Assembly: GCA_006503475.1 (NCBI GenBank)
Contig: RSEH01000003.1
Span: forward strand, 62,001-126,000
Reading direction: 5' to 3'
From: Stentor roeselii
Lineage: Eukaryota > Ciliophora > Heterotrichea > Heterotrichida > Stentoridae
DNA length: 64,000 bases
In this document: positions 7,909 to 64,000 of the stretch, piece after piece
Numbering within the stretch: the stretch's first letter is position 1
Layout of the letters: each line of letters starts with the position of its first letter
Program-made: the position numbers and the translations under genes
The notes under the pieces: model-generated
Databases searched by the model: none
What the model saw: the letters and a program-made list of their open reading frames with translations, nothing else
Told to the model about the DNA's origin: nothing

Positions 7909-8004
7909 TTTTATAATGTATCCTTCTCTTTACGTGACAAGAATTATTAAATTCAGAAAAATCTACTAGGGTGTTAAAACTTGCGGTTTTCATTGAGTTC
8001 AATT

Positions 8005-8150
8005 ATTTCAAGATAAAGTATGATTGACTTCTACTATTTCAAGATAAAGTATTTAATTGAACTCTACTATTTCAAGATAAAGTATTTAATTGACTTCTAC
8101 TATTTCAAGATAAAGTATTTAATTGAACTCTACTATTTCAAGATAAAGTA
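8005..8150. repeat. 33-bp minisatellite between convergent genes
   Basis: Five copies of a unit with the core ATTTCAAGATAAAGTA start at 8005, 8036, 8069, 8102 and 8135. The last three intervals are exactly 33 bp and the first is 31. Copies alternate between a spacer with TTGACTTCTACT and one with TTGAACTCTACT, so there is a 66-bp higher-order period. Because 33 is a multiple of 3 the array stays open in one plus frame, but it has no start context and sits between two 3' ends, so it is probably non-coding. Confidence 0.9.
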
Positions 8151-8161
8151 TTTAAATTACA

Positions 8162-17552: not shown

Positions 17553-19655
17553 ATGTTTAAGTTCAGTATCCTTCTAATCTCAATCGTTTCAATCTCTCTA
17601 GTCGCTCACATATCAGTAGAGCTTTTATACCAAGACCTATTCGAGAAACGAATTCCTTCGAAATCCTACAAGAACTCATTATTCTACCACTACAAACGTC
17701 TGAACACATCAGCCGAAGACCCAATCCCTCAATCAAACGATGTCTACACTTACACCTTCCCTTCTCTAAACATCGACTCAACAACTCACCTGAATTTTTC
17801 AAGTCTTTCATGCAGGCCGATTTCTTTCGGTTACTCAATCGAGCAAGGTTCTAAAGTCTTTCCAGACTTCACCTACCCCGACTGTTCCGAAGTGACGGGA
17901 GTCGATTTTTCCAAAGCGACAATCGACAGGATCAACAATAAACTGTCAATAAACTGCAAACATTCCAATTCTCCCTTTTTCTTCTCCGGGCCGGTTGCAG
18001 GTAGAACCCTGATGAAAAAGGACGATGTTTATATGCTTGAAATCCAAAAGTATTCCTCAGAACTCAACGCAGAAAATATCGAATTTGTCTTGGCAGACTG
18101 TTCTTCATCAGAGAAAAATCTTAAAAAAACAGAAGATTTTTCAGAATTTCTTAAAAAAAACAAGAAAAAAACTGAATTTGAACATGCGGCGATGGTACCT
18201 GAATTCAACGAGCAGTTATTAAATGAATATAAATCAAAAGTGAATGGAAAGCCGAAGATAATTTTTTTATTAACACTAGACTCGATGTCTCGTCGTCATT
18301 TTTTCAGAAAGCTTCCAAATGTAGTGAAATTTTTGAATAATTCGAAGAATTTTCCAGATCATCATTTGTATGACTTTAAACTTCACTCGACATTTGGATC
18401 TGACACGACTCACAACCAAGGACCGTTGTTGGGAGGGAAGGACTACTGGAGTCGAAGAAGTCGGGGCAATGGAGATAAACTTGGTTATTACTCAATGTGG
18501 TCCAAGATGAAAGAAAAGGGCTTCATCACCATGATGGGCACTGATGACTGTGATGGTGGATTTCCAAATGTTTTCGGAGATAATGTAAAAGTAGACTTTT
18601 CAGTAAGACAGTTCTTTTGTCTCATAAATGTCTACTCTGGGGTCAAATCCGCGAAAAATGAAACTGAACAGCGATGTGTAGGGCCTTATCAAAGCCACTT
18701 TTATGTCTTGAACTACACCTTGCAACTAGTGAAGGACTATAAAGAAAGTAACTTGTGGATTTACCATCATTTAAACGCAGCTCATGAAAAAACAGGCCAA
18801 CATGCAGCAACACTTAACAAGGACTTGACCTGGTTTTTAAAAGAATTTTTCAAAGAAGCTGAAAATTCAGAACTTTTCATGTACATCGGCGCTGATCATG
18901 GAATGAGATATGGAAACTGGTATAATTCAATTGATGCTTACCAGGAGACCAAATTACCTTCAATGTTTTTAATCGCTTCGAAGACCTGGCTTCAACGATT
19001 TCCTTATTCTTTTCATGCACTTGAAGAGAATTCAGCAAGACTTACAACGAAAACTGATTTAAGAGAAACTTTTCTCTCTTTGATTGAAGAAGAAGAAAAT
19101 GAACCCTGGGCTTACAACCTGCTTGAAAGAATTGTTCCTTTTTCTAGAGAGTGTCAAGACCTTCAATCAAATATTCTTTTTTGTGCATGCTCGCCGATGA
19201 GGCTTATTTCGAAGTTTAATTCCACCGTTAAACACGTCATTCATGCGATAAGGGAACGTGTTGAGGACATTGTTAATAAAAAGTCTTACTTTTTTCATAA
19301 GTTTCCTCCTGGAAAACACTGTGATTATATTAAAATTGGGAAAATTCTCAGGTTTTATCATATGGAAGTCAATAATCAACTTGAAGTCTTTAAGATAGAA
19401 TTTGGAAGCAATGTTAAAAAAGGATTTAGACTGGAAGTCAATGCACTTATTGGAAGTAAAGCTTCTTTGGTTAATGAAGATGGAGCGGATTTTAAAGGAT
19501 TTAATTTTGCTATTGCTGGGTATAAGTATCGCATTCGAGTAATCTGCAGGTAGGTTATGATGATCTCGAGATTAGATAAATATAGTGGGAAATGTCAGGT
19601 GAAAGCTGAAGGATTCGGAATTTTACCTGAATTTTGTGTCAGGAGCAGTTGTTGA
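17553..19655 (+). CDS. DUF229 / alkaline-phosphatase-superfamily membrane ectoenzyme, copy 1 (695 aa)
   Basis: Exons 17553-19538 and 19554-19655 join through a phase-0 15-nt intron, adding a conserved tail that ends in Cys (ISRLDKYSGKCQ...CVRSSC). An uncleaved hydrophobic N terminus (FSILLISIVSISLVAHISV) suggests a type II anchor. The catalytic core is that of DUF229 (Pfam PF02995): IIFLLTLDSMSRRHF with a metal Asp and likely Ser nucleophile, MGTDDCDGG, HLNAAHEKTGQHAATL, and the distal metal site GADHGMRYGNW. The sulfatase formylglycine signature C/S-x-P-x-R is absent, so a phosphodiesterase or phosphotransferase is more likely than a true sulfatase. First of three tandem paralogues. Confidence 0.85.
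19539..19553 (+). other. 15-nt intron of DUF229 copy 1
   Basis: GTAATCTGCAGGTAG, phase 0. Removal gives YRIR|VMMISRLDKYSGKC, matching the other two copies. A at position 10. Confidence 0.93.
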
Positions 19656-19821
19656 GAGTAGTTTGATTAAGTTAAGGTGTTTAGGAAACTAGTTTTTCTA
19701 GTTACAGCAAATTTTTTTTTTTTAAAGTTTTCATCAAATATCATTCAATTAATTAGTTTTGAATAGGATTATTCTACATTAATTTATTATGATACTGATG
19801 AAGACTTAAAATTTCTCTTTT

Positions 19822-19867
19822 AAAAGACCTTCAACTTTTTAAAAGACTTTTTACTCATTTAAAAGAC
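19822..19867 (+). promoter_or_regulatory. Three spaced TTTAAAAGAC direct repeats upstream of DUF229 copy 2
   Basis: AAAAGAC cores preceded by T-runs start at 19822, 19841 and 19861, spaced 19 and 20 bp. They end about 65 bp before the ATG at 19933. Regular spacing near two helical turns suggests a protein-binding array, though AT-rich DNA makes chance possible. They lie in the 277-bp gap between copies 1 and 2. Confidence 0.35.
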
Positions 19868-19932
19868 TATAAAATGAATTAGTTCAATAAGTTTCCATAT
19901 TTAGGAATATTTAGATTAACATAAATAAAGAA

Positions 19933-22038
19933 ATGCTAAGGTTCATTTTTGTAATAGCAGCTTATCTTAACCTCAGCTATCTTTTCCTAACCTTCCAACC
20001 AAAGTTTTTCAAAACTTTTAAAATTCTTCAAAAAAGCCGCCCTCTTGACTGCAAGTTATTCACTCAAAGTCACGCTCCAAAAAAATCTTATGAAGAAACA
20101 GTTCTTCTTCCAAACGAAGTTTATCCCTACAAGTTCAAACCTCTAGATATCGAAAACACAAAAAACTTAAACCTTTCAAAGTATTCCTGCACTCCAATCT
20201 CTTTCGGTTACTCAATCGCAGAAGGAAAAAAACTATTTCCAGACTATGAATACCCTTCATGTTCATCAGTGACAGGAGTATTTCAGTCTCTACTATCAAT
20301 AAACGAAACTTCAAACAACCTATCAATGACCTGTCCAAATGATAAGAAAGGTTTTTATTTTCAAGGCCCTTTATTTGTAAAAAACTTGATGATGAGAGAG
20401 TCTGTAAAGCACTTCAAGTTGCATGAATACAAAATTCAAAACACTTTCGGACCTTCAAGTTTTGGACTTGGTTTCTGCTCAAATTCAACAATATCCAAAA
20501 ATCCTCCATCAGAAAAATTTGCAGTTTACGATATCAACCCAAAAGAAATCCAACATGCAGACATGACTCCAATTTTTGATCAGCATTTATTTGAAAAAAA
20601 CTTAAAAACCTTAAACGGAACAAAACCAAAAATAATTTTTTTATTAACTTTAGATTCATTATCAAGGCGTCATTTTTACAGAAAACTTCCAAAACTTGTG
20701 AAATTTTTAAATGAAAGTGAAAATCTTTTACCTTCTCTTGCAGTTTATGATTTTTTACTTCATGGAACATTCGGAGCTGACTCAGTTCACAACCAGATTC
20801 CAATCTTCGGAGGAGCGGATTACATGAAAAAGATTCACGAATGTCGAGGAAGGGATAAACTTGGTGAGAGTTCAATGTGGTTTCAATTGAAAAAGAAAGG
20901 GTTTCTGACACTTATGGGATTTGATGACTGTGATAAGTGGTTTCCTAAGTTACTTGGGGAGGAGGTTAATATAGACTATGTGATTCGGCAGTTTTACTGC
21001 CTTGTCGATGTTTATGGAAAGGTTAAGACGGAAAAAGTGAATATCGAGCAGAGATGTCTTGGGCCTTATCAGACACATGCTTATTTGTTGAATTATACTT
21101 TGAAGATAGTTGAAATGTACAAAAAAAATAATATCTGGATTTATCTTCATCTTAATGCGGGACATGAACGCACTGGTCAACATGCTGCGACTTTAGACGC
21201 GGATGTCACTTATTTCCTTCAACGCTTCTTTGAAACTACTAAAAATGTTTCAGATGTTTTCATGTTCCTTGGAGCTGATCATGGAATGAGGTATGGCGAC
21301 TGGTATAATTCTATTGAAGCTTATAAAGAAACCACTTTACCCTCCATGTTCGTCATTTCAGATAAAAGTCTACTTGAACAGTTTAATTATTCTCATCATT
21401 CTTTAGAAGAAAATAGCAAAAGACTCACTTCTAAACTTGATATTAGAAAAACTATCTTTTCTTTAGTAGGGATTCAAGAAGAGTGTCCACAAAGTGTTGA
21501 TTGGTTGAGTCAAATCGCGAATTATTCCAGAAATTGCAAAGATCTCAAGTCTGATATGCTTTTCTGTCCATGTTCCAACTTCATATTAATGAAAAAATAC
21601 AACAAGATCATTAAAAGTGTTTTAAAACTCATTCGGGAAAAGACTGAAGAAGCTATGAATAAAATTTCTTTTAACTTTCCGTTGTATTCTCAAGGCCTTT
21701 ACTGTGATCGGGTCAACTTGGACCGACTGATCGATGCTTATCACTGGTCAGTCAACAGAACACATGAAGTCTTTAAACTTGAATTCGGAACAAGCGCTTT
21801 TAAGCAGTTTAAGCTTCAAGTGAACGTTTTGATAAGTTTAGCTTATTATTTCTCAAAAAATTCTCATTATAAATTCGGGTCTTTTGACCTGGTAGCAAAA
21901 GGGTACAAGTATAAAGCGTCTGTAAGAGCTGCTTAGATTATATCAATGAGTAGACTGGATAAATACGGAGGTCACTGTCAGTCGATAGCAGAGTCTCACA
22001 ATATCATTCCAGAGTTCTGTATTCGAACAGACTGCTGA
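19933..22038 (+). CDS. DUF229 / alkaline-phosphatase-superfamily membrane ectoenzyme, copy 2 (696 aa)
   Basis: Exons 19933-21921 and 21937-22038 join through a 15-nt intron at the same place as in copy 1; the stop is TGA. The N-terminal anchor is FIFVIAAYLNLSYLFLTF. Active-site blocks are IIFLLTLDSLSRRHFYRKLP, MGFDDCDKWF, HLNAGHERTGQHAATL and GADHGMRYGDW. As in copies 1 and 3, a fixed pattern of cysteines (SKYSCTPISFGYS, DYEYPSCSSVTG, IEQRCLGPYQTH) and many N-glycosylation sites point to an extracytoplasmic domain. The substrate is unknown; members of this superfamily act on phosphate or sulfate esters of glycans and lipids. Confidence 0.85.
21922..21936 (+). other. 15-nt intron of DUF229 copy 2
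   Basis: GTAAGAGCTGCTTAG, phase 0. Removal joins YKAS to IISMSRLDKYGGHC. Position 10 is G, the second exception to the A10 pattern. Confidence 0.92.
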
Positions 22039-22096
22039 TAATCCTTCAGTAATATTTAGGATTTTAATTCATTTAGTAGACCTGATTATTTTCAAC

Positions 22097-24178
22097 ATGA
22101 AAAAATTTTGTTTCTTGCTTTTTTCTTGGTACATCATTCTTTTAACATCCTTTATCTCGATTCAGGTATACGATGGAAAAAGATTTGAAAAGAAAATCCC
22201 GAGTAAACACTACAATGACTCAAGATTTTTCAGTAAAAACACAGAAAACTTCAACTTTTCAGACATCAAACAACACCCAAATAGTGGAAATTCTTACAAA
22301 TTCTCTCCTTTAGACATTGACAGCACGAGTAAGATGAATCTTTCGCTTTACAAATGCAAGCCAGTTACTTTTGGGTACTCAAAACTTGATGGTCAAAGAG
22401 TCTTCCCTGAAGTGACCTACCCAGACTGCGGCTCAGTCACTGGAGTTCAGACATTCAAAGCAACAATTGACAGAAATTCACATACAATTAATTTATCTTG
22501 TAAGAAAAACGAGAAAGGGTACTTTTTCGCAGGCCCTGTGAAAGGAAAGTCCTTAATGAAAAAAGAAGACGTTGAAATGATTGACTTTCAACCTTTCCAC
22601 AAGCCAATAAATTCCTCAAATATCGAATATTTTTTAGGAATTTGTGAAGAAAAAGACAAAGAAATCGATAAAAAACACATAAATCCTGAAAAACTTCAGC
22701 ATGGAACAATGAGACCCTCTTTCAACCCAGATCTTTATTCCCGGAACTTGAAAATGGTAAAAGAAAAGCCTTTAATAATCCTTCTGCTAACTCTTGATTC
22801 TTTTTCACGAAGACATTTCTACAGAAAACTTCCGAATTTAATAACTTACTTAAACCAAAGCCAGCACCTTTTACCTGATTTGGCTCTTTTTGACTTTAAA
22901 CTTCACTCAACATTCGGAAGTAACTCAGTGAAAAACCAGGTGCCGATCTTCGGAGGGAGGCACTGGAGAAGAAATCGTGATCCTTTCACAGAAGACACTT
23001 TAGGAGCTACTTCAATGTGGTATCAAATGAAAAGAAAAGGTTTTCTCACATTTATGGGACTTGATGACTGTGACAAATGGTTCCCTCGAGCTTTAGGAGA
23101 TGATGTTAAAGTGGACTACTCAGTGAGGCAGTTCTATTGTTTAATCGACAAGTACGTCGGAATCCGCACAGAGAAAAACGAAACTGAACAAAGGTGCCTT
23201 GGTCCTCGTCAGACTCATCATTATCTTTTAAACTACACCCTTGAATTAACTGATCTTTATAAAGGGACTAATATGTGGATGTCAATTCATTTGAATGCTG
23301 CTCATGAGAAGACTGGTCAACATGCTGGGACTTTAGATAAGGATTTGGTATTGTTTTTTAAAAAACTTTATCAAATAATTGGAAATTTTTCTGAAGTTTT
23401 CGTGGTTTTAGCTGCGGATCATGGAATGAGATATGGACATTGGTATAATACTATTGACTCTCATCAGGAAACTAAATTGCCTGCGTTTTTTTTAATTGCT
23501 AGTAGAAGTCTTTTAGAAAGGCATTTTGCTTATCAGAGTCTTCAGGAAAATACTGAAAGGTTGACTTCGAAACTTGATATAAGGAAAACTATTTTGTATT
23601 TGATTGGGGATTATGAATATGAACCTACTGCTGTTAATTTGATGAGGGAAATCGCTTCTTTGTCTAGGACTTGTGAGGATATGGACTCGGATTTACTTTT
23701 TTGTGCTTGCTCGCCGATTTCGGAGATTATTGAATATAATGAAACTATTAGGGGTGTTATTTCAATTATTCAGAGTAAAGCTCAAGAAATTGTGAACAAA
23801 TTTAGTTATTCTTTTCCGAAGTACCCTCCAGGAAAATACTGTGACCATGTCAACCTAAACCAAGTAAAAAAATTCTACCACATGGAAGTAGATTCAGATA
23901 TAGAAATCTTTAAACTCGAATTCAGCAGTGACCAAATCCCTTCACTAAAGCTCGAAGTGACATCCTTTATCTCTTCAAACAATTATCTTATAACCTATAA
24001 ACACAAGTCAATCTTTCCCGCATTCAAAACCGCAACAAAAAATTTCCAATACATGATAAGAGTAACCCATATTCAGATAGTCCAAATCTCAAGACTAGAC
24101 CAATACTCAGGAAAGTGTCAAAGTATAGCAGAGTCAAAAGGAATCCTCCCTGAATATTGTATTAGAGATAAATGCTAG
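22097..24178 (+). CDS. DUF229 / alkaline-phosphatase-superfamily membrane ectoenzyme, copy 3 (688 or 693 aa)
   Basis: The anchor is FLLFSWYIILLTSFISI. Active-site blocks are IILLLTLDSFSRRHFYRKLP, MGLDDCDKWF, HLNAAHEKTGQHAGTL and AADHGMRYGHW. The frame is open through the position where copies 1 and 2 have introns. In that place sits GTAACCCATATTCAG (24062-24076), which has no in-frame stop. Splicing it makes the tail the same length as in copies 1 and 2 (IR-IVQ-ISRLD versus IR-VMM-ISRLD), so the 688-residue spliced form is the better model. It starts 58 bp after copy 2 ends and stops 6 bp before the C2H2 gene. Confidence 0.85.
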   Translation: MKKFCFLLFSWYIILLTSFISIQVYDGKRFEKKIPSKHYNDSRFFSKNTENFNFSDIKQHPNSGNSYKFSPLDIDSTSKMNLSLYKCKPVTFGYSKLDGQRVFPEVTYPDCGSVTGVQTFKATIDRNSHTINLSCKKNEKGYFFAGPVKGKSLMKKEDVEMIDFQPFHKPINSSNIEYFLGICEEKDKEIDKKHINPEKLQHGTMRPSFNPDLYSRNLKMVKEKPLIILLLTLDSFSRRHFYRKLPNLITYLNQSQHLLPDLALFDFKLHSTFGSNSVKNQVPIFGGRHWRRNRDPFTEDTLGATSMWYQMKRKGFLTFMGLDDCDKWFPRALGDDVKVDYSVRQFYCLIDKYVGIRTEKNETEQRCLGPRQTHHYLLNYTLELTDLYKGTNMWMSIHLNAAHEKTGQHAGTLDKDLVLFFKKLYQIIGNFSEVFVVLAADHGMRYGHWYNTIDSHQETKLPAFFLIASRSLLERHFAYQSLQENTERLTSKLDIRKTILYLIGDYEYEPTAVNLMREIASLSRTCEDMDSDLLFCACSPISEIIEYNETIRGVISIIQSKAQEIVNKFSYSFPKYPPGKYCDHVNLNQVKKFYHMEVDSDIEIFKLEFSSDQIPSLKLEVTSFISSNNYLITYKHKSIFPAFKTATKNFQYMIRVTHIQIVQISRLDQYSGKCQSIAESKGILPEYCIRDKC
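24062..24076 (+). other. Candidate stop-less 15-nt intron of DUF229 copy 3
   Basis: GTAACCCATATTCAG at the homologous intron site; A at position 10, acceptor CAG. It contains no stop, so it is invisible in an open-frame scan and is inferred from paralogue alignment. Confidence 0.75.
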
Positions 24179-28401: not shown

Positions 28402-28899
28402 ATGTTTCCTTCAGAGTTTTGTATTTTAGATTTTTTTCATGACAGTCGTACCCCAATGCATCTCATCGAGCCAGGTCTCTTTCTAGGTAAAATTGACGCA
28501 GTAAAAAGCCACGACTTCCTAAAGCAAAATGGAATAACTCGTGTCCTTTCAATTCTCGACACATTCCGTCATTTCCCCCGCCTACCAAAAGAAATCGACC
28601 AATTAAGAATAACCCTTCCGAATTCCACATGCAGCAGAATAGTTGACCATTTCCCAGAAGCTCTAAAGTTTATCTCAGATTCTCAAAAGTCAGGAAGGCC
28701 GATACTAGTCCACTGTTCGACAGGGCTTTCGCTAAGTCCCTCAATGGTTATCGGGTATCTGATGGTGAAGTACAAATTGAAGTTCAAGTCTGCGAAAGCA
28801 ATTGTTAGTGAGAAGCGAAGATGCACTTGGCTGAATGAAGGATTTGAAAGTCAACTTAGGACTTTAAATATAAGGCAATATAAAAAATATGTAGATTAA
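28402..28899 (+). CDS. Dual-specificity-phosphatase paralogue with altered catalytic residues (probable pseudophosphatase), 165 aa
   Basis: A full-length, uninterrupted paralogue of the phosphatase at 48590-49087, with the same length and about 70% identity by eye. The active-site loop reads HCSTGLSLSPSM where the active copies read HCAAGVSRSASM. Cys105 is kept, but the P-loop Arg111 is Leu. The likely general-acid Asp74 of the active copies is Asn here. Without the phosphate-binding Arg and the acid, normal catalysis is unlikely, but phospho-substrate binding remains possible. The open frame over 165 codons suggests selection for some function, or only recent loss. It lies alone in gene-poor DNA, 20 kb from its paralogues. 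Confidence 0.8.
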   Translation: MFPSEFCILDFFHDSRTPMHLIEPGLFLGKIDAVKSHDFLKQNGITRVLSILDTFRHFPRLPKEIDQLRITLPNSTCSRIVDHFPEALKFISDSQKSGRPILVHCSTGLSLSPSMVIGYLMVKYKLKFKSAKAIVSEKRRCTWLNEGFESQLRTLNIRQYKKYVD

Positions 28900-31057
28900 A
28901 GTTAGAAATTATGAATGATGGAGATTTGAAACAAAAGTAATGAGGATATAACAATTTCAATATTTTGAAAGCGAGAGATATGGATTTTTTTAGGTTTAGT
29001 TATTAATAAGGGTAATGAAGAGATAAACTTGGTAGAATAATATCAGTCTTTATAATGATGATCAATCATATTGTGCCTGTGAAGTGCAAGAATAGGTATC
29101 ACAATTTAAGATTTATAGAATGACTAGAAATGCTCATCAACTGGATTACTTTTATAGTCTCGTAACTTTAAATAGATAGTATTTTTAGTTTTTCAGTAAG
29201 AGATGCATCTTTAAGTTGAAAAGATCAAAAAACACCGGTTTTTACCTGTTTGTAAGAGAAAATTTCGGACTAATTCATTTAAGCTAATTCCAGATTTGTT
29301 CTATGAAAATTTTTATTCACTAGTGCAGGGATTAATGTAGAGTGTAGCGAATTTCACTTCTTGGCCCCTAAAGAAAGTAGTTTTACGTGCGAAGGTTTTA
29401 AATGAGATCTCTATGAAACTAACAGAAAAAATCAAGTATACTTGAACTAAATATTTTATCATTCAATTTTATTCAATTTCTTAATATGCCTAGTTTTACT
29501 GATGTCGTTGGGCTGAATTTAAGTGCGTAGTTAAAACCTTCAAAAAAATAATGAATTCAAATTAATATCAGGATTTGTTTAACAACCAATATTTATGAAT
29601 CAATTAATTATCAAGAGTTCTTGAAATTCTGTCATGCGAGCTAAAAGTCTTTTATAGAGAGTTTATAATTAAACTGTGAGAAAATTGAAATCATTATTAG
29701 ACCTCAAAAAGTTTGATAAAGTAGCACTTTTCTTAATACAAAAATTTAAGCCTATCAAAAAATGATCAATAAAAAACTAAATGGCTCATCCATAACAAAA
29801 TAACAGCAAAAAATTTTGTCCTTCAATACCTGATAAAGGGAAAATATGAAATTTTTTAGATAATGAAGCAAAAATATTTTTTCTAGTTGTTTTTTAGGGC
29901 CCTATCGATTTTTTTATGCTTAATATTTTAAATCCTTCTAGTTACACTAGAGTCTTGGCCAGCTTAAAAAAGCTTGCTAATGATTCTTTAATATTAAACA
30001 TCAATTTTATAATAAAACTAAAATCTGGAGGTTCAAACCTTAGATCATTTCTTCATTAATCAGTCTAGAATTATCTTCTTTGTCATTGTAAAAGTCCTGC
30101 TTTGAGTAGACCAGGTGTCTTGAAAAAATGGCTCTTAAGGGCTTAGGATTTTATCAAGGCTTTAAGTATAAGAATTTAAGGTATACTCCACTATGATTGG
30201 ATCTTAGATTTGAAGATTTATCGAATTCGAGATACTGCTGATAATTTTTTGAAGGGTTTTAATATAAAGAATGAAGCTTACATGGAGACACTTATTGAAG
30301 ATTACCGAAGAAAATTTTCGAATACTTCTTAGTGTATACTTTCTATGTAATTATTGGTTTTTTCATCAAGATCTCTTTAAGCTGCTTAAAGAAGTATTTA
30401 TTAGCATAAAAATTATTAAGAGATTCCATCTTACTATCTAATCAAATATTGGATTCTTGATAAATGGGCCTAGCTTAGACTGATAAATCAACTCCATTAT
30501 AAATTCACTTAGATTCTGATAATAATAGACTTTTAGAAAGAGTAAAAAATCAATTCTAATCTTTATACATAAAACTATAAATAATCATATAAGAGAAAGT
30601 TGAATGAGTAATCAAGCTTACTTCACTAATATAACTCGAAAACAATATCTCTACTATTAAATTATTTAAACTCCTATGAAATATAAAATATTTGTATAAA
30701 AACATTAAATTCTAATATGCTGAATGTATTTATATATTCATGTCCACTCTTCCTGAAAACCCTTCACAATTAAACAAAAATCTCCCAAGTAATAACCTAA
30801 TATAATCTCATAATAATCTAAATATTCCACTTCTTCCTTTCATCTCTCACAGTCTCACTAAACCAAAAAAATTAAAATTCAACAACTAAATCACCTAAAA
30901 TTAAAACCCCAATCCTTTTCCACTTCTCCACCCTTCAATCTTTCGCTAAATCCAACCTTTCAAAACCAGAAAATTAATTAAAAATCTAAAAAATTAATAT
31001 TCCCTAAACATCTTTCCTACGTCAGCTATTTTAATGGTTCCAAAATTATTATAAAAA
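28900..31057. other. Gene-poor AT-rich stretch with relics
   Basis: No intact gene in 2.2 kb. A plus-strand relic lies at 30110-30332. Weaker coding-like snippets lie at 29096-29179 and 29189-29287 (the latter includes KNTGFYLFVREN). The last 250 bp become C-rich and T-rich before the pyranose-oxidase gene and probably hold its promoter. Confidence 0.55.
30110..30332 (+). pseudogene. Plus-strand gene relic with one frame change
   Basis: The first frame reads CLEKMALKGLGFYQGFKYKN and LRYTPL, then TGA at 30194-30196. A second frame overlapping it continues YDWILDLKIYRIRDTADNFL, then FNIKNEAYMETLIEDYRRKF, ending at TAG 30330-30332. The two segments abut with one frame shift. No 15-nt intron joins them. 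No family is recognised. Confidence 0.45.
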
Positions 31058-32686
31058 ATGCCAGGTTTATTCAAGAAACCACAAAACCTCGCCACTGAAG
31101 AGTCATGCGACGTATTCATCGTCGGCAGTGGTCCAATCGGGGCCTATTACGCAAGAACCATATTCGAGAACCGTCCAAACCTGAAGATCTTAATGGCTGA
31201 AATCGGTGCAAATTATTCATCAAAATACGGGACAAATGCTAAAAATGCTTATATTTTTAACTCAGGTGACGATGGTCTGGACATTCTTTCCCACATAGTG
31301 AAAGGTGAACTGGTTCCGATATCAAGTCCAATTCGTCAGCCATGGCCTGAAAGTTTAGAGCCGAGGTCTCAGCCGCCTTCGCCTCCGCCTCACTACAGGA
31401 TCAACGGTTCTAACCCAGATCAGAAGGATTGGAACAATATGCCTTCCGCAAGTGCCTCTTACCAAGTCGGAGGAATGGGCGGGCACTGGACTTGCTGCAC
31501 TCCTCGACCATATAATGACGAGTTACCTACAGAGTACCCTACTTCTGAATTTGAAGGACTACTTGAAGAAGCAGAAAGAATTTTTAATACGAATCAAGAA
31601 TCTTTTGCTGATTCTATAAGAGGACAAATCATGGTCGAAGAATTGAATAAAGAGTTTCATGAGTTGAAAGGACCGAGACAAGTTCAGATGCTTCCTCTTG
31701 CGTGTAAAAAAGATAGCAAAAGTGGGTATATCAGATGGCATGGACCTGATGATTTATTCGGACCTTTAGCGACACCTAATGGGGTTTCTGCAGATCGATT
31801 CCAGCTATGGGAAGAACATATTGTTAGAAAACTTCAAATTGATAGTAATAACAATATCGTTGCTGCTGAAGTTGAACATTTACCGAGTAGGACTAAAAAA
31901 CTGGTAAAGGCTAAACATTTTATTGTTGCTGGAGGAGCTTTTAGCACTCCTCAACTTTTGTGGAATTCAGGGATTAGACCGAAGGCACTTGGACATTACT
32001 TGAATGAACATCCGATGTGCTTTACACAAATTGTGTTGAGTAGAGATCTGGTCTTGAAATGCAAAAATTTATATCATAGGAGATGTAAAGATGCTGGATT
32101 AGACCCTGATCCTTATTCTATTCCAGATGATGATCCTATTCCTAATGTTTGGATTCCTTATTCGGATAATCATCCTTATCACTGTCAAGTACATAGAGAC
32201 TCTTTTCCGTATTCGACTTTACCTGAAAATCTTGGAGTTGATAGAAGGTTGATCATTGATTTGAGGTGGTTCACGAAAAAGGAAATTAGATATGAAGATA
32301 GGATCAAGTTCTCTTCTAATCATAAGGATATGCATGGAATGCCTCAGGTCACTTTTGAATATGGATTATCAGCTAGGGATGAAGAAGTTGTTGCTGGAGC
32401 TTTAAAAGATATGCAAAGAGCTGCTGGTGCACTTGGTGGGTACTTACCTGGATCTCCACCACTACTATTACCAAGGGGAAGCAGTCTACATTATATGGGA
32501 CTTTACAGGGTTGGTCTTGACTGCAATACCTCAGTTTGTGATATTGATTCAAAAGTATGGGGATACAATAATTTGTATTTGGGTGGAAATGGCATTATTC
32601 CTACGTCTAATACTTGTAACAGCACTTTAACTAGTCTTGCCATTGCGATAAGAGGTGCTAAAAAGTTACTACAAAAGTTAATTTAG
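31058..32686 (+). CDS. Pyranose 2-oxidase-like GMC flavoenzyme, 542 aa
   Basis: An FAD Rossmann fold opens the protein (VFIVGSGPIGAYYARTIFEN). GGMGGHWTCCTPRP matches the flavinylation motif of fungal pyranose 2-oxidase (GGMSTHWTCATPR), placing the covalent FAD histidine at H143. The substrate-loop region HRDSFPYSTL matches HRDAFSYGAV. SLHYMGLYRVG keeps the catalytic His (H478, equivalent to His548 of the Trametes enzyme), and CNSTLTSLAIAIR keeps the catalytic Asn (N521, equivalent to Asn593). The C-terminal LYLGGNGIIPT block is also typical. Such enzymes oxidise C2 or C3 of sugars or glycosides, reducing O2 to H2O2. No signal peptide or PTS1 is visible. It is isolated between gene-poor stretches. 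Confidence 0.9.
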   Translation: MPGLFKKPQNLATEESCDVFIVGSGPIGAYYARTIFENRPNLKILMAEIGANYSSKYGTNAKNAYIFNSGDDGLDILSHIVKGELVPISSPIRQPWPESLEPRSQPPSPPPHYRINGSNPDQKDWNNMPSASASYQVGGMGGHWTCCTPRPYNDELPTEYPTSEFEGLLEEAERIFNTNQESFADSIRGQIMVEELNKEFHELKGPRQVQMLPLACKKDSKSGYIRWHGPDDLFGPLATPNGVSADRFQLWEEHIVRKLQIDSNNNIVAAEVEHLPSRTKKLVKAKHFIVAGGAFSTPQLLWNSGIRPKALGHYLNEHPMCFTQIVLSRDLVLKCKNLYHRRCKDAGLDPDPYSIPDDDPIPNVWIPYSDNHPYHCQVHRDSFPYSTLPENLGVDRRLIIDLRWFTKKEIRYEDRIKFSSNHKDMHGMPQVTFEYGLSARDEEVVAGALKDMQRAAGALGGYLPGSPPLLLPRGSSLHYMGLYRVGLDCNTSVCDIDSKVWGYNNLYLGGNGIIPTSNTCNSTLTSLAIAIRGAKKLLQKLI

Positions 32687-44257: not shown

Positions 44258-46063
44258 TTATTGTTTGGATTCTGATGTTTCCATTTTCTTGACCACTCCC
44301 TCAATAATCTTTTCTAACTGTCTTCTAGTAGGAAGGTAATCCTGAAACATGAGACTCTTTTGTAAAAAACCACTAAGAGCCGTATGAAAGAGTTTCCTTT
44401 TATCATTATCCTTAAGATTTTCAAACATGATTTTAGTATCTCTCTTATACCTTTCAACACATTTCATATAATATTCTTCAATAGCAGCTTCACGAACATG
44501 AGTAGGAATCGATATAACTTTTAAACTTGCACGTTTTCTAGACTGTTTTTTTCCACTACTTTTCCTAAATAAATAATGCTCACAAGCAGAAGTCCACATT
44601 CTCTTCAGTTCTTGAATCAACTGTTCTTTCCTTGACAGATGCATGCGAATATTCCTCTGAATTCTAATCGTATTTCTAAAAAAAGTACTGAATTTGTTAA
44701 AAGCTCGAAAAGCATTTGCTGCGAAAGAAATAAAACTAGTTAAATTCGAACCAGAGTGCTTTTTCGTGATATTTTTAGTGATTTTTGAATAAAACATTAA
44801 GGAATTTTTGCATCGACACATGATAATATCTTGAATATTTTGATTATTTTTAAAAGACTTGTAAGCTTTTTGAATAAGAATCACTTTGCGAAGCAAAGTC
44901 TGTGCCTGTATTTTTTCTTTTTTTCTCTTAAAAATCGAAGACCTGATACATTGAATAGAAAAAGCAAAGTAAGAATATTTCAACCAAAATCCCCAAAATT
45001 TTTCTTTCATTTGAAAAATTCGAAGTTCTTTTCTCTTAACTTTTTCTTGCTCTTCTTTAAGTTTCTTTTTATTCAAATTTTCCAAAGCTTTATTTTTCTT
45101 TAAATCCAAGAAATCTTTTTTTCTCGTTAAAACTTTTTCTCTTCTAATTTTCCAGATTTCAGCTTTTTCAGAAAGAAGACTAGCTCGACTAGTAAGACTT
45201 GCATATTGAGTGCATTTATTTTCTTGAATAAAGTCTTTATGATTGAATTTAGAAGGACTTTTATCCAGTTCTTTCGACTCATCTCCTTCAGTGAACTGTG
45301 TTGGAAGTAACGTGAGTTGTCTTTTTATGCGTTTCAGTTCTTCAAGACTTCCTATTTTATTCCCGAAGGAAATGTAAAGTTTAATCAAAGACTCTTCAAT
45401 TCCTTTGATACCTAAATAAAGGGTGTCGTATTTAAAGTGAAGACTTGACTCTCGAATTTCTAAGTAGTCTCCTGGAAAGCATTTTTCGTAACTGAGCGGG
45501 CCTGGCTCTTGCACTTCACTTGAGGTGTAAGAACAAACCCGCCCTTGTTTTCTCTTAATTTTTATCGTTAAAGGCGCTTTTTTACCCTTGACTGGACATC
45601 GGAAGAACTTTAATTTTCCTTCTCCGATGTGGACTTCTATGTGGTCACCTTCTGTTAGAGTGATTGAGTCACTTGCTCCTTTTGGCGAAATCACTTCGTT
45701 GATAGAATTCATCAGATTTGCGTAGTCTCGGTCTGTGAAAACTTGTGCTTTTAGGTGAATGTCCGGGAAAAATGATCTTTTGTTTGATTCACCTGATAGA
45801 GGAGTCAAAAATGTGAAAATTTTTTCGTTTTGTTTCTCGGAATAGTCGCTTATTGACTTGTGGTTCCTTTTTCGGTCTAAGGGCTGGACTGACTTGCTTA
45901 TTGGAGGGATTTCTTCTGGGTTTGTTGAGTCGTAGTTTGAAAGGTTTTCAGTCTTTATGGAGAGAGAAGTGGTTATTTTCGAAGCCATCAATCTGAATGA
46001 AGGAAGAACATAAAACGAATTAGCTTTCGAGTGTCGATGAAGAAAGTCTTGGTATTTATTCAT
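44258..46063 (-). CDS. IQ-motif coiled-coil protein with beta-rich domain, 601 aa
   Basis: Residues about 125-235 look beta-rich (GDHIEVHIGEGKLKFFRCPV, GDYLEIRESSLHFKYDTLYL). A basic helix follows (about 300-360) and then IQ-like segments (KVILIQKAYKSFKN, TIRIQRNIRMHLSRKEQ) that may bind calmodulin or centrin. The C-terminal 90 residues are helical. No named family. It neighbours the Trp-repeat gene on the same strand (33 bp gap) and is divergent from ARMC9, with 39 bp between start codons. Confidence 0.65.
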   Translation of the reverse strand: MNKYQDFLHRHSKANSFYVLPSFRLMASKITTSLSIKTENLSNYDSTNPEEIPPISKSVQPLDRKRNHKSISDYSEKQNEKIFTFLTPLSGESNKRSFFPDIHLKAQVFTDRDYANLMNSINEVISPKGASDSITLTEGDHIEVHIGEGKLKFFRCPVKGKKAPLTIKIKRKQGRVCSYTSSEVQEPGPLSYEKCFPGDYLEIRESSLHFKYDTLYLGIKGIEESLIKLYISFGNKIGSLEELKRIKRQLTLLPTQFTEGDESKELDKSPSKFNHKDFIQENKCTQYASLTSRASLLSEKAEIWKIRREKVLTRKKDFLDLKKNKALENLNKKKLKEEQEKVKRKELRIFQMKEKFWGFWLKYSYFAFSIQCIRSSIFKRKKEKIQAQTLLRKVILIQKAYKSFKNNQNIQDIIMCRCKNSLMFYSKITKNITKKHSGSNLTSFISFAANAFRAFNKFSTFFRNTIRIQRNIRMHLSRKEQLIQELKRMWTSACEHYLFRKSSGKKQSRKRASLKVISIPTHVREAAIEEYYMKCVERYKRDTKIMFENLKDNDKRKLFHTALSGFLQKSLMFQDYLPTRRQLEKIIEGVVKKMETSESKQ

Positions 46064-46102
46064 TATTTAATAGAGTTTAAACTGTATTAAACTACTTATA
46101 AA

Positions 46103-58185: not shown

Positions 58186-60048
58186 ATGACTCACCAGATT
58201 GTTTTCGTTACTCTTGAAAACCTTCAAGTCAGCCTTTCATGTTACAGAGACCAGGTAATTGCAGCAGGTTTTGACTTTTCTCAGAGAAAGTCAGTGAATC
58301 TTTCATTGTTAAACCTTTCAACCTCTCGTTTTCAATTTTTATTACAGCTGAAGTCAAGCCAGATCTGCCGTTTCTTTCAATATTTTCCTATGAAGAACCT
58401 TCTGGTGTTCAATGAAGGGCTGAAAGGAGGAGGCTGTGGGACTTCCAAATCGAAAAAACACGGAATTCTTACAGTTTCAGAGGCAAACATGAGTCACATG
58501 GCAAGTCCTTTGAAGTTAAATCAACGTGAAGTTGAAGTCTCATCCGATATCAAATATTCAAGCCTTTCAGAAGACTTCGAATTGACTTACCTCGAAGAAG
58601 AAGCTCAAAACAACCCCCTTTACTCCAAAGACAACATCGAGAAACAGCTGAGCCATGCCAATTCTGATCGACTTCTCGCTAATTACTACCTCGAAGTCGG
58701 CAAAAGAAAAGAAGCAAAACAGAAGTTCATTCAAAGTTACTCTATTTTTATCCACTTTTTACCTAAAGGCGATGAACTTTTAACTGAACTCTCAGCGATC
58801 GTCGGACAACTTTCATTCGAACTTGAAGACATGGAAGAAAGTCTTGAATTTTTCACAAAAGCTTTAAAAAATTGTTATGAAAATATTGACTTGAATCAAA
58901 AAAATATTTTTGAAGTTTGTTTTGGAATTGCTCAAGTTTATGCGAAACTTGAAGATGTTGAAAATTTTCAAGATTTTTTTAAGTTCATTGAAAAAGACTT
59001 GAAAAGTTTGAATGTGGAAAAAGAAATCGAGTTTTATTTCTGGGTTGGAGAAAAGTTCATGAAAACTGACTGCTTGACTAGCAACAGGTTTTTAATGAAA
59101 GCTTGGGAACTACTGGAAAAAGTTCCTAGTTTTAATAAAAAAAAAGAACTCCTTATTGATTTAGGAAGCATTTCTTCTGATTTGAAAAGTTGGGAAGAGT
59201 CTAAAGATTTTAATATAAAAGCTTTGAAAATAGTAGAAAACCTTGAAAACCCGAATACTTCTGATTTTGTTAAAATTTATAAAAATCTCTGTAAAGTTTA
59301 TGAAAACCTTGGAGATCGCTCGAACTTGAAACAAGCAAATGAAAGTCTTTTAAAATACCAGACACAGCTCAGTGAAGCTGATGAAAGTCTCGCAAAGTCC
59401 CTTTTCAACCTTGGCCTGATACAAATAAAAGAAGGAGAAGTTCTAAAAGCGATAGATTCTTTCAAAAAATCAGTCGAAATCCGAGTCGCTCTAGGAAAAA
59501 AAGCAAAAGACTGTCAAGTCGCCTACAAAAACATTGCCTCAACTTTATACAACCTGAAGCGTTTTCAAGAAGCAAAAGAATATTTCAACATTTTACTCGA
59601 AATTCACAGGTCTTCTAAAAGTGATTTAGAAATTGCTGAAGTTCTTTGCAATATTGGGACTTGTTGTGTTGAAACTGAAGATTTTATCAAAGCACGAGAA
59701 GTATACTCAGAACTTCTTACTAATGAGAACTGGAATAATCAAAGAAAAGATGTTGAAGCAGATTTTTTTAGCTTTGCTTGGGTTTTGTCTAAGTTGGAGA
59801 TTTTTGAAGAAAGTGCGAAAATGTATGAAAAAGCAGCTGGATTCGAATTGAGAAAGGATGATGTCAATTTTGAGTTTTTGACTAAGTGCTTTAATAATGC
59901 TGAGAACTCTTTTTGTAAAGTGCAGAATTATGAGAAGGCTTTGAGTTGTGCTCAGGAGAACTTGAAAATTATGAAGGCACATTTCAAAAATGATAGAGTG
60001 AAAATTAATACTTTGAAGAGCAATATAGAGTTTTATAGAAGATCATAA
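58186..60048 (+). CDS. Tetratricopeptide (TPR) protein, up to 620 aa
   Basis: Residues about 165-600 form a TPR array with repeated helix pairs of 40-42 residues, such as LLANYYLEVGKRKEAKQKF, LFNLGLIQIKEGEVLKAIDS and AYKNIASTLYNLKRFQEAKE, like those of kinesin-light-chain or GPSM-type scaffolds. The N terminus is uncertain. The first 68 residues are unlike the rest, and an internal ATG at 58390 (MKNLLVFNEGLKGGGCG) gives a 552-residue protein with a more natural start. TPRs act as protein-binding scaffolds; partners are unknown. Confidence 0.8.
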   Translation: MTHQIVFVTLENLQVSLSCYRDQVIAAGFDFSQRKSVNLSLLNLSTSRFQFLLQLKSSQICRFFQYFPMKNLLVFNEGLKGGGCGTSKSKKHGILTVSEANMSHMASPLKLNQREVEVSSDIKYSSLSEDFELTYLEEEAQNNPLYSKDNIEKQLSHANSDRLLANYYLEVGKRKEAKQKFIQSYSIFIHFLPKGDELLTELSAIVGQLSFELEDMEESLEFFTKALKNCYENIDLNQKNIFEVCFGIAQVYAKLEDVENFQDFFKFIEKDLKSLNVEKEIEFYFWVGEKFMKTDCLTSNRFLMKAWELLEKVPSFNKKKELLIDLGSISSDLKSWEESKDFNIKALKIVENLENPNTSDFVKIYKNLCKVYENLGDRSNLKQANESLLKYQTQLSEADESLAKSLFNLGLIQIKEGEVLKAIDSFKKSVEIRVALGKKAKDCQVAYKNIASTLYNLKRFQEAKEYFNILLEIHRSSKSDLEIAEVLCNIGTCCVETEDFIKAREVYSELLTNENWNNQRKDVEADFFSFAWVLSKLEIFEESAKMYEKAAGFELRKDDVNFEFLTKCFNNAENSFCKVQNYEKALSCAQENLKIMKAHFKNDRVKINTLKSNIEFYRRS

Positions 60049-62867
60049 TATTTAATATTTTTCTTGAAGGATGTTTATTTATAGAGGATTATATCAGGAA
60101 TTGGATGTTTTGGTAAATAAAGCTAGAATGCATAGATTAGCTTTAATATTATGCTAGATTTAAATAGGATTTGTACACTGAATAATTAGCCTAAATCAAT
60201 CGAATTGTATAAATTTAGTGTTACACCATAATATTATGAAAATATTTTTTATTAATCCCAATTTTTTAGCTTATTTTAGATAAACTCTTGCTCTATTTCT
60301 GATTCTATCAATAAAGTTTGAAAGGTTCAAATGAGAAAGGTATGTTTAGGGTGTAATAGCATCACTTAAACAAAGGTTTTTTTAAATTAAGATCATGAAA
60401 TTATTTAAATTGAAACTTCAATCTGGAATTGGTATGATAATAAAATTTTGTGATGATCAAGAAAGGTCTAGAAAATAAGGAATAAACAGTCATGATTAAC
60501 ATGGATAAGAAAAAAAAAAACTAATCTTTAATAATATTCTTGCTATTTTTATTATTGAGTTAGTACCAAAATTAGAGAAATTTAGTAAATATAGCAGATT
60601 TGATAGCTTTTATCAGTACGAAATTCGAAAAAATTGAACTATAATAATAATTCTTTGATATAAATTAATCCTATAATCAATTATTGCTATATTTTGAGTT
60701 TAAATATTTTAATGACGGCGAATTATAGTTTAATCTAATGAAGCCTAATATATTTTCTTTTTTTAATTTGTTTTAAATTATGTGTATATGATGAGAAAAT
60801 AGTAGTAATGGAACCGAAGGTATACAGATTCTAGCTTAAGAATTGTTAACTAGTTTATGTACTGAATTGAAAGGATTTGAACTAATTTTAGAATTTAGGA
60901 GTTTCTTTATTAGTATATATTAAAAAATTTTGAGAAGTTTGAAAGGTAACTTTCAGGTGACAAGTTGAAATATTACCCTGCTCTGCAGCCCAGATCATAT
61001 GTTAATTCAAAGCTTATAGGGAGCATCTTCAGTAGCAGAAATAAAAATATGCTGTATCTTTATAATGAAGTCGTTTATTGTGAGGGATTGGTTACTAAAC
61101 TAACAGCATAATAAAATTGATCATAAATTACAACAATTTTTAAATTGCTTAGCCAATTCTCAATTTTGATGACTCGATCTTCAATCTGGTTTAGTTTCAA
61201 CTCATGATAGATATATCGGAAGTCTATTATAATAAACATTGATCTTTAGAGTGATTTAATATAATATTTATAAAAATAAAATAGAATATGAAAAGCATTA
61301 ACTTCGTAAGAATTCTGGGTCTACTCGTTCTTAAAATTTCTACAAAATCTATAGGTAGAATTAGTCATCTTAAATTTAATGTTACTATATAATATTAAAT
61401 ATTGAAAAATTTTTGCAAGTTTTAATATTTTTTTACTGAAATTAAGATTTAATTTTTGTATTATAATCAATAAATTTATATTGAAATATTTTAAGTAAAG
61501 TTTAGTTTCCTATATATACATTCTTTAAATGAATACATTATTCAAAATAATAACAAATTAATATCAAAGTTATAAAAAATAATAAAAGAGAGTCTCTTAT
61601 AAAAATAAGGTAATATTTTATTATCTTTGCTGTAGCTTATTGAACGCATATATACATCATTGGAATTTACCTGATTTTATAAACTAATTTATGATATTTT
61701 AATAGCACTTTGATTTATATATAATTCAGATTTTCCAGAATAGCATTTATTTTAAGTTAATCTCACAATAATTATATCTCTAGGCTTCGTTTATTTTCCT
61801 TTGTGATTTATCCGAAATGATATTTCAAATATACAGAGCTTAGTAAAATCTTGAGGAAGAGTTTATAATTTTTACAAAGTTTATTGATGATAGGGTGCAA
61901 GTCAATTCTTGTCATTTTACCCACTAAACTCTTTTATTGGGAATATGATTAAAACTAAATAAATTTAAATTATTTTCGAAGGTTAAAAGACACAGATCTT
62001 GAATTTTTATAGCTTAGTTTGATAATTTGTGTATTCACATATGATAGCGATTTACTAAATTATATTACTTTATTAACTTTATATAAACTAAACCAAAACT
62101 TTAATCGTTTTTTATAAACTTTATTAAACTTTAATGGTTCAAAAATCTTAACTAAAATTAACGCTAATCTTCTACCTAAGTATTAGAAGTAAAAATTCAG
62201 CTTTTTAAGAATGAAAAAAACATGTAAAACCATTTCTTCGATAAATATTTTCTCTTAAATGTAATTATATGAATTGATTCATTCTCCAGTATCCATTTTT
62301 TCATTCTTTTCTTAAAACCAACCAAACAAAAGATTAATTACTTTGAGTTGTATGAACCATGATCTGATTTATTAAGTAAATACTCTTGAAATTATTCATC
62401 ACTCGGATAAACCTCGAGAATTAAGTCTTTATATTAAATATTCATATTAAGAAAGAAAAATAATATAAATGTTATTCGCATAATATTATCTTATATAAGG
62501 AATGTTTTAAATTAATCGATAAAGAAATTTCACCTGGTTCAAATTTATTGACTTTATATTCAAGTCATTCCTTTGAAATATTGAAACTTAAATTCAGCCC
62601 ATCAGAAAATTTTACTCAAAAGGGTTATTGGACCTTTATCCAATAATTTTCACAGACACCAAAATTTTATTAAGTTTAAATAAAAAAAGTTCCGCTGATA
62701 ACACAATGACAGAATCTTAATAGTCCCTTGCTCTTAGTGCAAAAATATTACATATATTATCTTGAGTAAGATATTAATAACCAAATATCCATACATCAAC
62801 TAATTGTAAATAATAAATCCAAATAACTATTAAATTTATCAAAGGTATATTTATCTAACTATCTAGT
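60049..62867. other. Gene-poor AT-rich stretch, 2.8 kb
   Basis: No intact gene is visible. Apart from a 53-codon coding-like island at 60950-61111 I see only AT-rich DNA with frequent stops in all frames, no tandem array and no RNA gene I can recognise. Confidence 0.6.
60950..61111 (+). pseudogene. Coding-like island, possible gene relic
   Basis: A stop-free plus frame of 53 codons runs between TAA 60947-60949 and TAA 61109-61111. It reads LKYYPALQPRSYVNSKLIGS, then RNKNMLYLYNEVVYCEGLVT. The composition (P, Q, G, C, E) is protein-like and the DNA is less AT-rich than around it. It has no start codon near its beginning and no recognised family. Confidence 0.3.
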
Positions 62868-63662
62868 CTAAGTAAGATTTTCCCCATGATGATGCAAAAT
62901 AAAATCTTCATAACTCATCAAAAACGTTTCTTTGATCGAGCTCTGACATTGATCAAAATAAGCAAAAATCTGTTTACAAAAGACTTGCTTACAATTATAA
63001 ACATTAATTTTCCCTTCCTTATCCTGATTATAATTTACCATGATCAAATTAAGAGTAGCATTCAAAACTGCATCAACCTCTTTTGGAAAGTTGATAAGAC
63101 AAAGACAAATGATGAAAATTCCATGATGTTTAAGAAAAATCCTTTGAATCCTTTCACGGTTCTCAAACAATTTAAACGCAAAAATCGCCGTGTTCCTTTC
63201 TTTGACAAGCGAAATCTTCTCAAATATTCCAAGTCGAACAACATGAAAAATCACTGATTCAGACAAAAAGTCCAATGAAGATTCAATCAAATCAAAAGAA
63301 TTCAACTGTAGCGACTTTTCAGTTGACTGAAGATTGCTCACTAGTTCAGGAATTATTGAAATAAAAATCGAGAAATGAGACTTGTTCGAAAAGTCTAAAT
63401 TTTTTTGCAAGACTGAAACACTTTGAGCTCCGATTGAATCAACGTTTAAAGATTTTTCAGGAAATAAAAACTCGTTTGGCTTTTCTGTTACTTTCACAAG
63501 TGTGGATAAGGATTTCCAGTTTTTTTTTGAGAGAAAATCTTGGAATTTTTTGGAGTTTTCTGATTCGTGGGAGACACGGTTTAGGGTTTCGGGAATGGTT
63601 TCTGAATGGTTTGATGAGAATTTGGAATCTGTAAAATCAAATCTTTGAGCACAACACCCCAT
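62868..63662 (-). CDS. MGCC-type acylated helical protein, 264 aa
   Basis: The N terminus MGCCAQRF is a classic dual N-myristoylation (Gly2) and palmitoylation (Cys3, Cys4) signal, so the protein is probably anchored to the cytoplasmic face of a membrane. The rest is helical, with Leu/Phe-rich segments like alpha-solenoid repeats (FDLIESSLDFLSESVIFHVV, VLNATLNLIMVNYNQ). It could be an armadillo-like scaffold; no family is certain. Palmitoylation at Cys3/Cys4 would need a DHHC enzyme such as those encoded at 50-53 kb, a general possibility only. Confidence 0.65.
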   Translation of the reverse strand: MGCCAQRFDFTDSKFSSNHSETIPETLNRVSHESENSKKFQDFLSKKNWKSLSTLVKVTEKPNEFLFPEKSLNVDSIGAQSVSVLQKNLDFSNKSHFSIFISIIPELVSNLQSTEKSLQLNSFDLIESSLDFLSESVIFHVVRLGIFEKISLVKERNTAIFAFKLFENRERIQRIFLKHHGIFIICLCLINFPKEVDAVLNATLNLIMVNYNQDKEGKINVYNCKQVFCKQIFAYFDQCQSSIKETFLMSYEDFILHHHGENLT

Positions 63663-63875
63663 TAGCGATTATATTTATTACAATGTTAAAGTTTGCTTTT
63701 TAAAATAGTGGATTTGAAAGGGTTACTGTTTGAAGATAGATAAATAATCCTTAGATTTGGAAATAGATAAAATTATTCAGTTGTTGTGAGTGGTCTTTGA
63801 TTCAACCTATAAAAAAAATAGAGTAAAAGTAATATTTAGGTTTAAAACTAAAACTTTATCCATAACTTAGATACC

Positions 63876-64000
63876 CTAGACTGTAAAAACGTTTATCGGT
63901 CCAGTGACTGAGAGCAACTCAGTTTTCATCTCATCATGGGTCCTCATTTGCATCGTTAACGAATTTTCATTAGACATGAGGCCAAATGCGCAAATTTTCC
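63876..64000 (-). CDS. C-terminal end of an unrecognised protein (cut by right edge)
   Basis: On the minus strand a frame entering from the right edge reads KICAFGLMSNENSLTMQMRT, then HDEMKTELLSVTGPINVFTV, and stops at TAG (63878-63876). The composition is protein-like and the DNA is notably less AT-rich than the flank. It is too short for a family call. About 215 bp separate it from the start of the MGCC protein gene on the same strand. Confidence 0.5.
   Translation of the reverse strand, partial: KICAFGLMSNENSLTMQMRTHDEMKTELLSVTGPINVFTV

Follow-up and report, generated by a model that had tools for sequence, protein, structure and literature searches.

A pyranose oxidase-type flavoprotein gene of deep lineage in the ciliate Stentor roeselii

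Characterised pyranose oxidases (POx) are of fungal, actinobacterial and, in one case, cyanobacterial origin, and related activities have been reported for some genes of Pseudomonadota and Deinococcota (PMC11650716, PMC10807413; statements from PubMed Central (PMC) papers here and below follow excerpts of them). POx and the C-glycoside oxidases (CGOx) occupy one shared sequence space (PMC10807413). The cyanobacterial enzyme, OPOx of Oscillatoria princeps (PDB 9FL2), oxidises glucose at C2 and was inactive on the tested glycosides carminic acid and naringin (PMC11650716). No report of such an enzyme in a ciliate, a protist or Stentor surfaced in the open-access PMC literature, which is weak evidence of absence, and pyranose oxidase occurred together with Trypanosoma only in unrelated papers. 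Here we describe a POx-type gene in a 64,000-nucleotide stretch of contig RSEH01000003.1 of Stentor roeselii, positions 62001-126000 (hereafter the window; Table 1). The enzyme kind is known, the lineage is deep and new, and the host is unexpected. We consider it likely (probability about 0.72) that the gene encodes a working FAD (flavin adenine dinucleotide) oxidase of the oligomeric POx type that belongs to a deep lineage, and that the ciliate gene most likely came from a bacterium.

We compared the 542-residue protein with proteins of known structure and found that OPOx was the best match by both sequence and structure. In a phmmer search of the PDB, 9fl2 ranked first (1e-107, residues 12-539), followed by 8qve (3.9e-86) and then by fungal pyranose 2-oxidases (P2Ox) from 3.7e-74. 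Foldseek on the predicted model also returned 9fl2 first (E 8.5e-51, template modelling score 0.82-0.85). The protein passed the curated cut-offs of both GMC_oxred_N (31.7 bits, cut-off 23) and GMC_oxred_C (49.8 bits, cut-off 24.6). When the 44 Mb assembly was searched with GMC_oxred_C (E 0.001) and GMC_oxred_N (E 0.01), exon by exon with introns ignored and only the best candidates scored, this gene was the only match found. No second copy was found in the host assembly, where a search with the protein itself gave one further match at the level of noise (E 0.088). A preliminary description of this DNA had named a P2Ox-like gene in a ciliate at this position, and the reading frame and its best match agree with it; it had also asked whether the protein falls among ordinary ciliate GMC oxidoreductases, and the single match means that it is not one of several.

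To place the protein we searched plasmids, prokaryote genomes and viral contigs; the only eukaryotic genome covered was that of the host. Twelve plasmid records matched by tblastn, the best being a pSymB gene of Sinorhizobium meliloti Ak57 (50.7%), with the other 11 at 20-35%. Identity to the Sinorhizobium gene was 54% over 412 residues in trimmed pieces, and 46% over a C-terminal piece by BLASTP. The deposited gene (L004:4878-6642, CP090106.1) is split over at least two frames, whereas the ciliate frame is intact, and it adjoins acyl-homoserine-lactone synthase and LuxR genes. A two-motif scan of 84,980 prokaryote species, one genome each, found 362 relatives; the 80 best of them, which were kept, reached at most 42% in their best segment. 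Relatives were rare in whole-genome samples, with counts that include the centre genome: 2 of 385 in the class of G001 (E 1e-30), 2 of 400 in the phylum of G004 (E 1e-70), 1 of 17 in the order of G335 (E 1e-70) and 1 of 398 in the phylum of G008 (E 1e-50), none above 41% identity. Neither an exact-octapeptide scan nor a two-motif scan found a relative in viral contigs.

We then built trees of 92, 48 and 34 rows, in which fungi were sampled by one row with its residues 378-420 unknown; CarA 7DVE, L010, L103 and the Phanerochaete sequences were in none of them. In the quick 92-row tree, which defines what we call the POx branch (24 rows) and the CGOx side (68 rows), the window protein fell in the POx branch with OPOx, the fungal row and the Kitasatospora aureofaciens enzyme KaPOx (Shimodaira-Hasegawa-like approximate likelihood ratio 100), and paired with the Sinorhizobium row at 82. 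The careful 48-row tree gave the POx branch 100/100 and united the other 22 rows, including OPOx and the fungal row, in one group (100/100) with the window protein outside; its pairing with Sinorhizobium (86/54) is unproven. After removal of Sinorhizobium, the 34-row tree again placed the window protein outside OPOx, the fungal row and the rest (100/99). Approximately unbiased (AU) tests on these 34 rows rejected a clade of window and OPOx (p = 0.0033), a pair picked after the residue shared at position 84 had been seen (see below). These trees suggest that the protein sits at the deepest split of the POx branch, a placement less certain than the support values. Its lineage would then be older than the divergence among the cyanobacterial, actinobacterial and fungal enzymes in our sample.

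The residues of the putative active site are of the POx kind. All ten functional residues that we mapped from Trametes P2Ox are kept: the four listed in Table 1 under the flavinylation motif and the catalytic pair, together with Q377 (Q448), H379 (H450), D381 (D452), F383 (F454), Y385 (Y456) and R403 (R472). The matches to fungal P2Ox noted earlier for HWTC, HRDSFPY (residues 379-385) and H478/N521 are thus borne out by alignment. H143, T145, H478 and N521 are conserved but shared with the CGOx side, so they are not diagnostic alone; His143 occurs in 67 of 68 CGOx-side rows. By comparison, D381, Y385 and R403 occur in 24/24 POx-branch rows (window counted) and 0/68 CGOx-side rows, and H379 in 21/24 and 0/68, counts that describe the branches and are not independent proof, because the tree was made from the same sequences. 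Where the ciliate protein has H, Y and R, the CGOx side typically has Met379 (66/68), Pro385 (66/68) and Gly403 (60/68), and the CGOx-side enzymes PsG3Ox (7QF8) and DaCGO1 (8QVE) are without equivalents of D381, Y385 and R403. On the basis of the distribution of these three residues, we predict oxidation of free monosaccharides with release of H2O2. Of the earlier expectation that H2O2 is produced from sugars or glycosides, the sugars are favoured and the glycosides appear less likely.

Several features are shared with particular relatives. OPOx (38-39% identity) has the same catalytic residues, a similar arm length, Glu69 at the position of Glu84, and residues matching S475-S476; unlike OPOx, the ciliate protein has a substrate loop two residues longer and NS for NP after the catalytic Asn. 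The fungal row and KaPOx, too, have a loop shorter by two residues. Among the 24 POx-branch rows the ciliate form of the loop recurs only in the Sinorhizobium row; seven actinobacterial rows have another, different longer form. Sinorhizobium also shares Glu84 and the arm sequence, with 63% arm identity compared with 31% to the next row. KaPOx (L014), grouped with actinobacterial clade I, shares the branch and has similar arm and head lengths, and it differs in identity (42%), in having His at position 84 and in lacking Ser-Ser before the Leu477 position. The fungal P2Ox of Trametes, Peniophora and Phanerochaete (1TT0, 1TZL, 4MIF) are 28-34% identical, branch separately and have a larger head, with a segment of 61 residues in ToPOx (PMC11650716). 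The ciliate head segment of 35 residues compares with 42 in OPOx, 39 in KaPOx and 15-21 in three CGOx-side rows counted in the same way. Arm and head are near POx values by alignment only, and the model has a predicted local distance difference test score below 50 over residues 54-118.

Table 1. Features of the pyranose oxidase-type gene in window coordinates
Feature	Position	Strand	Basis
Pyranose-oxidase-type GMC flavoprotein gene, intact, single-exon, 542 aa	31058..32686	+	ATG to TAG open reading frame, family searches and structure model
Rossmann FAD-binding segment, residues 16-49, DVFIVGSGPIGA	31103..31204	+	PDB alignment; strand-helix-strand in model
Glu84 (OPOx Glu69)	31307..31309	+	alignment
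Arm, residues 84-134, 51 aa (OPOx 48, fungal row 49); oligomerisation loop of known POx	31307..31459	+	alignment
Flavinylation motif HWTC, residues 143-146; His143 = TmP2Ox His167, Thr145 = Thr169	31484..31495	+	alignment
Short head-domain segment, residues 328-362, 35 aa	32039..32143	+	alignment
Substrate loop and flanks, residues 377-403 (Q377, H379, D381, F383, Y385, R403)	32186..32266	+	alignment
Catalytic His478 (TmP2Ox His548)	32489..32491	+	alignment
Catalytic Asn521 (TmP2Ox Asn593), then Ser522	32618..32623	+	alignment

Whether the flavin is covalently bound cannot be read from HWTC, which had been taken as a sign of flavinylation: the motif is present, yet PsG3Ox carries H-W-T with FAD that is not covalently linked (PMC10807413), so His143 alone is not proof of a covalent flavin. 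Glu84 and the arm do suggest both a covalent His-FAD link and an oligomer. The authors of the OPOx study tie Glu69 to the position of the histidine and to an activity that is reversibly lost around pH 6-7; among POx whose FAD is known to be covalent, they saw this residue in OPOx only (PMC11650716). Glu is found at position 84 in 3/24 POx-branch rows (window, Sinorhizobium and OPOx) and, with a less secure alignment, in 6/68 others. By analogy with OPOx and fungal P2Ox, FAD would most likely be tethered to His143, and D-glucose, D-xylose or like free monosaccharides would enter under the loop of residues 381-385. His478 and Asn521 would accept the proton while flavin N5 receives a hydride from C2. 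The flavin would then be reoxidised by O2, and the products would be a 2-keto-sugar and H2O2.

Two results weigh against a working POx of deep lineage as we propose it. The protein scored 421.8 bits with TIGR02462, the NCBIfam equivalog pyranose_ox, below the cut-off of 544.9, and the tree program warned that long branches meet at the deep node and that the composition of the window row is unusual, which makes the exact depth less sure. POx-branch controls scored 563.8 (KaPOx), 568.5 (L011), 615.4 (L015) and 527.1 (L091, likewise below the cut-off), and four proteins from the CGOx side scored 183.2-230.3. Because of its score, the ciliate protein lies outside the TIGR02462 equivalog as curated, and in the sequence space common to POx and CGOx it forms a sister branch that belongs with POx and whose residues predict POx activity. 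This intermediate score, and the shared sequence space itself (PMC10807413), could also be expected of a glycoside oxidase that, in the manner of PsG3Ox or CarA, has C- or O-glycosides as its main substrates, oxidises them at C3 and breaks down plant or algal glycosides. Ser476 is as in 68/68 CGOx-side rows, though OPOx and Sinorhizobium have it too, and OPOx with the same Ser-Ser is inactive on carminic acid and naringin (PMC11650716). With H379, D381, Y385 and R403 of the POx kind and the placement in the POx branch at 100/100, we regard a glycoside oxidase as quite unlikely. It is a little less probable still that the protein is an altered or inactive homologue, in which sugar oxidation is abolished by the longer loop together with Ser in place of Pro behind the catalytic Asn, and another role is kept. 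Of the 91 rows that have a letter at position 522, only the ciliate row carries Ser, the other 90 all having Pro; this and the unusual loop insertion would fit such a loss, whereas the other mapped functional residues and the 542-codon frame are intact.

The origin of the gene can be weighed in the same way. A wood-decay or aquatic fungus might come to mind as the source because P2Ox is the classical member of the family and shares the catalytic residues. However, AU tests rejected window with the fungal row (p = 7.0e-5) and window with Sinorhizobium and the fungal row (p = 9.9e-5), each with one fungal sequence in the tree, and identity to fungal chains is low. We therefore consider a fungal source very improbable, and the specifically fungal affinity suggested before is not supported. 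An old eukaryotic or ciliate-wide gene, descended vertically and lost elsewhere with no transfer into this ciliate, deserves more weight, and we still hold it to be unlikely. Native codon usage (see below), the depth of the branch and the distance of the best 80 prokaryote relatives speak for it; against it, the nearest sequence found is the rhizobial plasmid gene, in searches whose sole eukaryotic genome was the host's. With the nearest kin found being bacterial under that same coverage, transfer from a bacterium to the ciliate is the simplest and most likely reading, and any transfer must be old or fully ameliorated, because codon usage equals that of the neighbours. The suggestion that the gene was acquired thus gains from its bacterial relatives and draws nothing from its composition.

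We also asked how the gene fits its surroundings in the assembly (44.4 Mb, 522 contigs). The longest stop-free run in 100 random 64 kb sequences, generated as first-order Markov chains with the dinucleotide transitions of the window, was 220 codons, and with 542 codons a chance open frame is rejected. Its G+C at third codon positions (GC3) was 0.310 compared with 0.302-0.372 in 15 neighbouring frames, its codon-preference score 0.140 (0.076-0.138) and its total G+C 0.403, marginally the highest (0.312-0.400). Codon usage is native to the host. The neighbours in the window, all eukaryotic, include Dymeclin/Hid1, LRR/IQ, three DUF229, dual-specificity phosphatase, PP2C, two kinesin, ARMC9, two DHHC transferase and TPR genes; the flanking genes and the native codon use exclude a contaminant contig. 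The gene is isolated, as described earlier (2.2 kb and 0.7 kb), with an upstream gap of 2.16 kb to the dual-specificity phosphatase frame ending at 28899 and a downstream gap of at most 0.92 kb to a PP2C frame open from 33607 at the latest. This setting is no evidence of acquisition: the 24-30 kb region is low in G+C (0.277-0.299) with few long frames, yet holds at least one ordinary gene, the phosphatase. GC3 along the gene was 0.42 and 0.40 over the first 180 codons and 0.26 thereafter. We rejected partial amelioration as the cause, since the same rise occurs in the first DUF229 gene (DUF229a), the gene at 44261 and the TPR gene, though not in Dymeclin, ARMC9 or kinesin.

Other observations concern the window at large. 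Third-position C is enriched over the first 90-180 codons at 17553-19550, 28456-28896, 31058-32683 and 44261-46066, though not in all 16 genes examined. The three DUF229 (PF02995) genes stand in tandem on the + strand (17553-24175), followed by a stretch poor in G+C and long frames to about 31 kb. Upstream of the oxidase gene, a long frame at 29916-30557 is open only with TAA/TAG read as Gln, has no Pfam match at E 0.01 and is probably noncoding. A 33-bp unit is repeated in tandem at 8004-8155 (4.7 copies, 92% matches), and G+C falls sharply at the window end (60001-64000; 0.232 and 0.281).

The host eRF1 (L105:1387-2763) has the motif GKAANIKS, the usual eukaryotic motif being TASNIKS, though in the window each of TGA, TAA and TAG functions as a stop. 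Of 18 frames of at least 400 codons defined by TAA and TAG only, 15 contain 0 TGA and 100 TGG. The remaining three carry TGA near an end: one at codon 0, a 725-codon frame at codons 14 and 724, and a 436-codon frame within its final 63 codons. With this distribution, we conclude that TGA acts as a stop in the host and reject UGA as Trp, the assignment reported for Blepharisma stoltei (PMC9942806). The Stentor transcriptome was likewise annotated with the standard code (PMC9371601). The telomere repeat (CCCTAACA)n, searched as a three-unit pattern, had 547 overlapping matches in the assembly compared with 0 for the reversed control, and a CCCTAACA repeat is also reported from Blepharisma (PMC9942806).

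The host's one catalase match (L106:1477-2949, 490 aa) ends in AKL, of the peroxisomal targeting signal type 1 (PTS1), the C-terminal tripeptide that signals peroxisomal import. The POx-like protein has no PTS1: it ends in QKLI, and peroxisomal import by PTS1 is rejected. It also has no hydrophobic N-terminus, the top 15-residue hydropathy in its first 40 residues being 1.02, over the Rossmann strand. Because both signals are missing, the cytosol is our default guess for its location.

We also considered that this is a deep heterotrich POx lineage, bacterial in origin, whose flavin is acid-gated through Glu84 so that H2O2 is made only in acid compartments, for example food vacuoles. This idea follows from the match of Glu84 to OPOx Glu69, the residue behind the reversible switch-off around pH 6-7. 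Gating in food vacuoles needs targeting, none is visible in the sequence, and we judge the idea improbable as a whole. If true, it would give a phagotroph a step in digestion or defence that produces peroxide; roles in digestion, defence or pigment chemistry are speculation. For the family, a POx-branch member below the sampled enzymes helps to order the divergence of monosaccharide-type and glycoside-type enzymes, and it indicates that a eukaryote outside the fungi gained or retained such an enzyme. For Stentor, the protein is a candidate source of H2O2, one for which Glu84 predicts acid gating.
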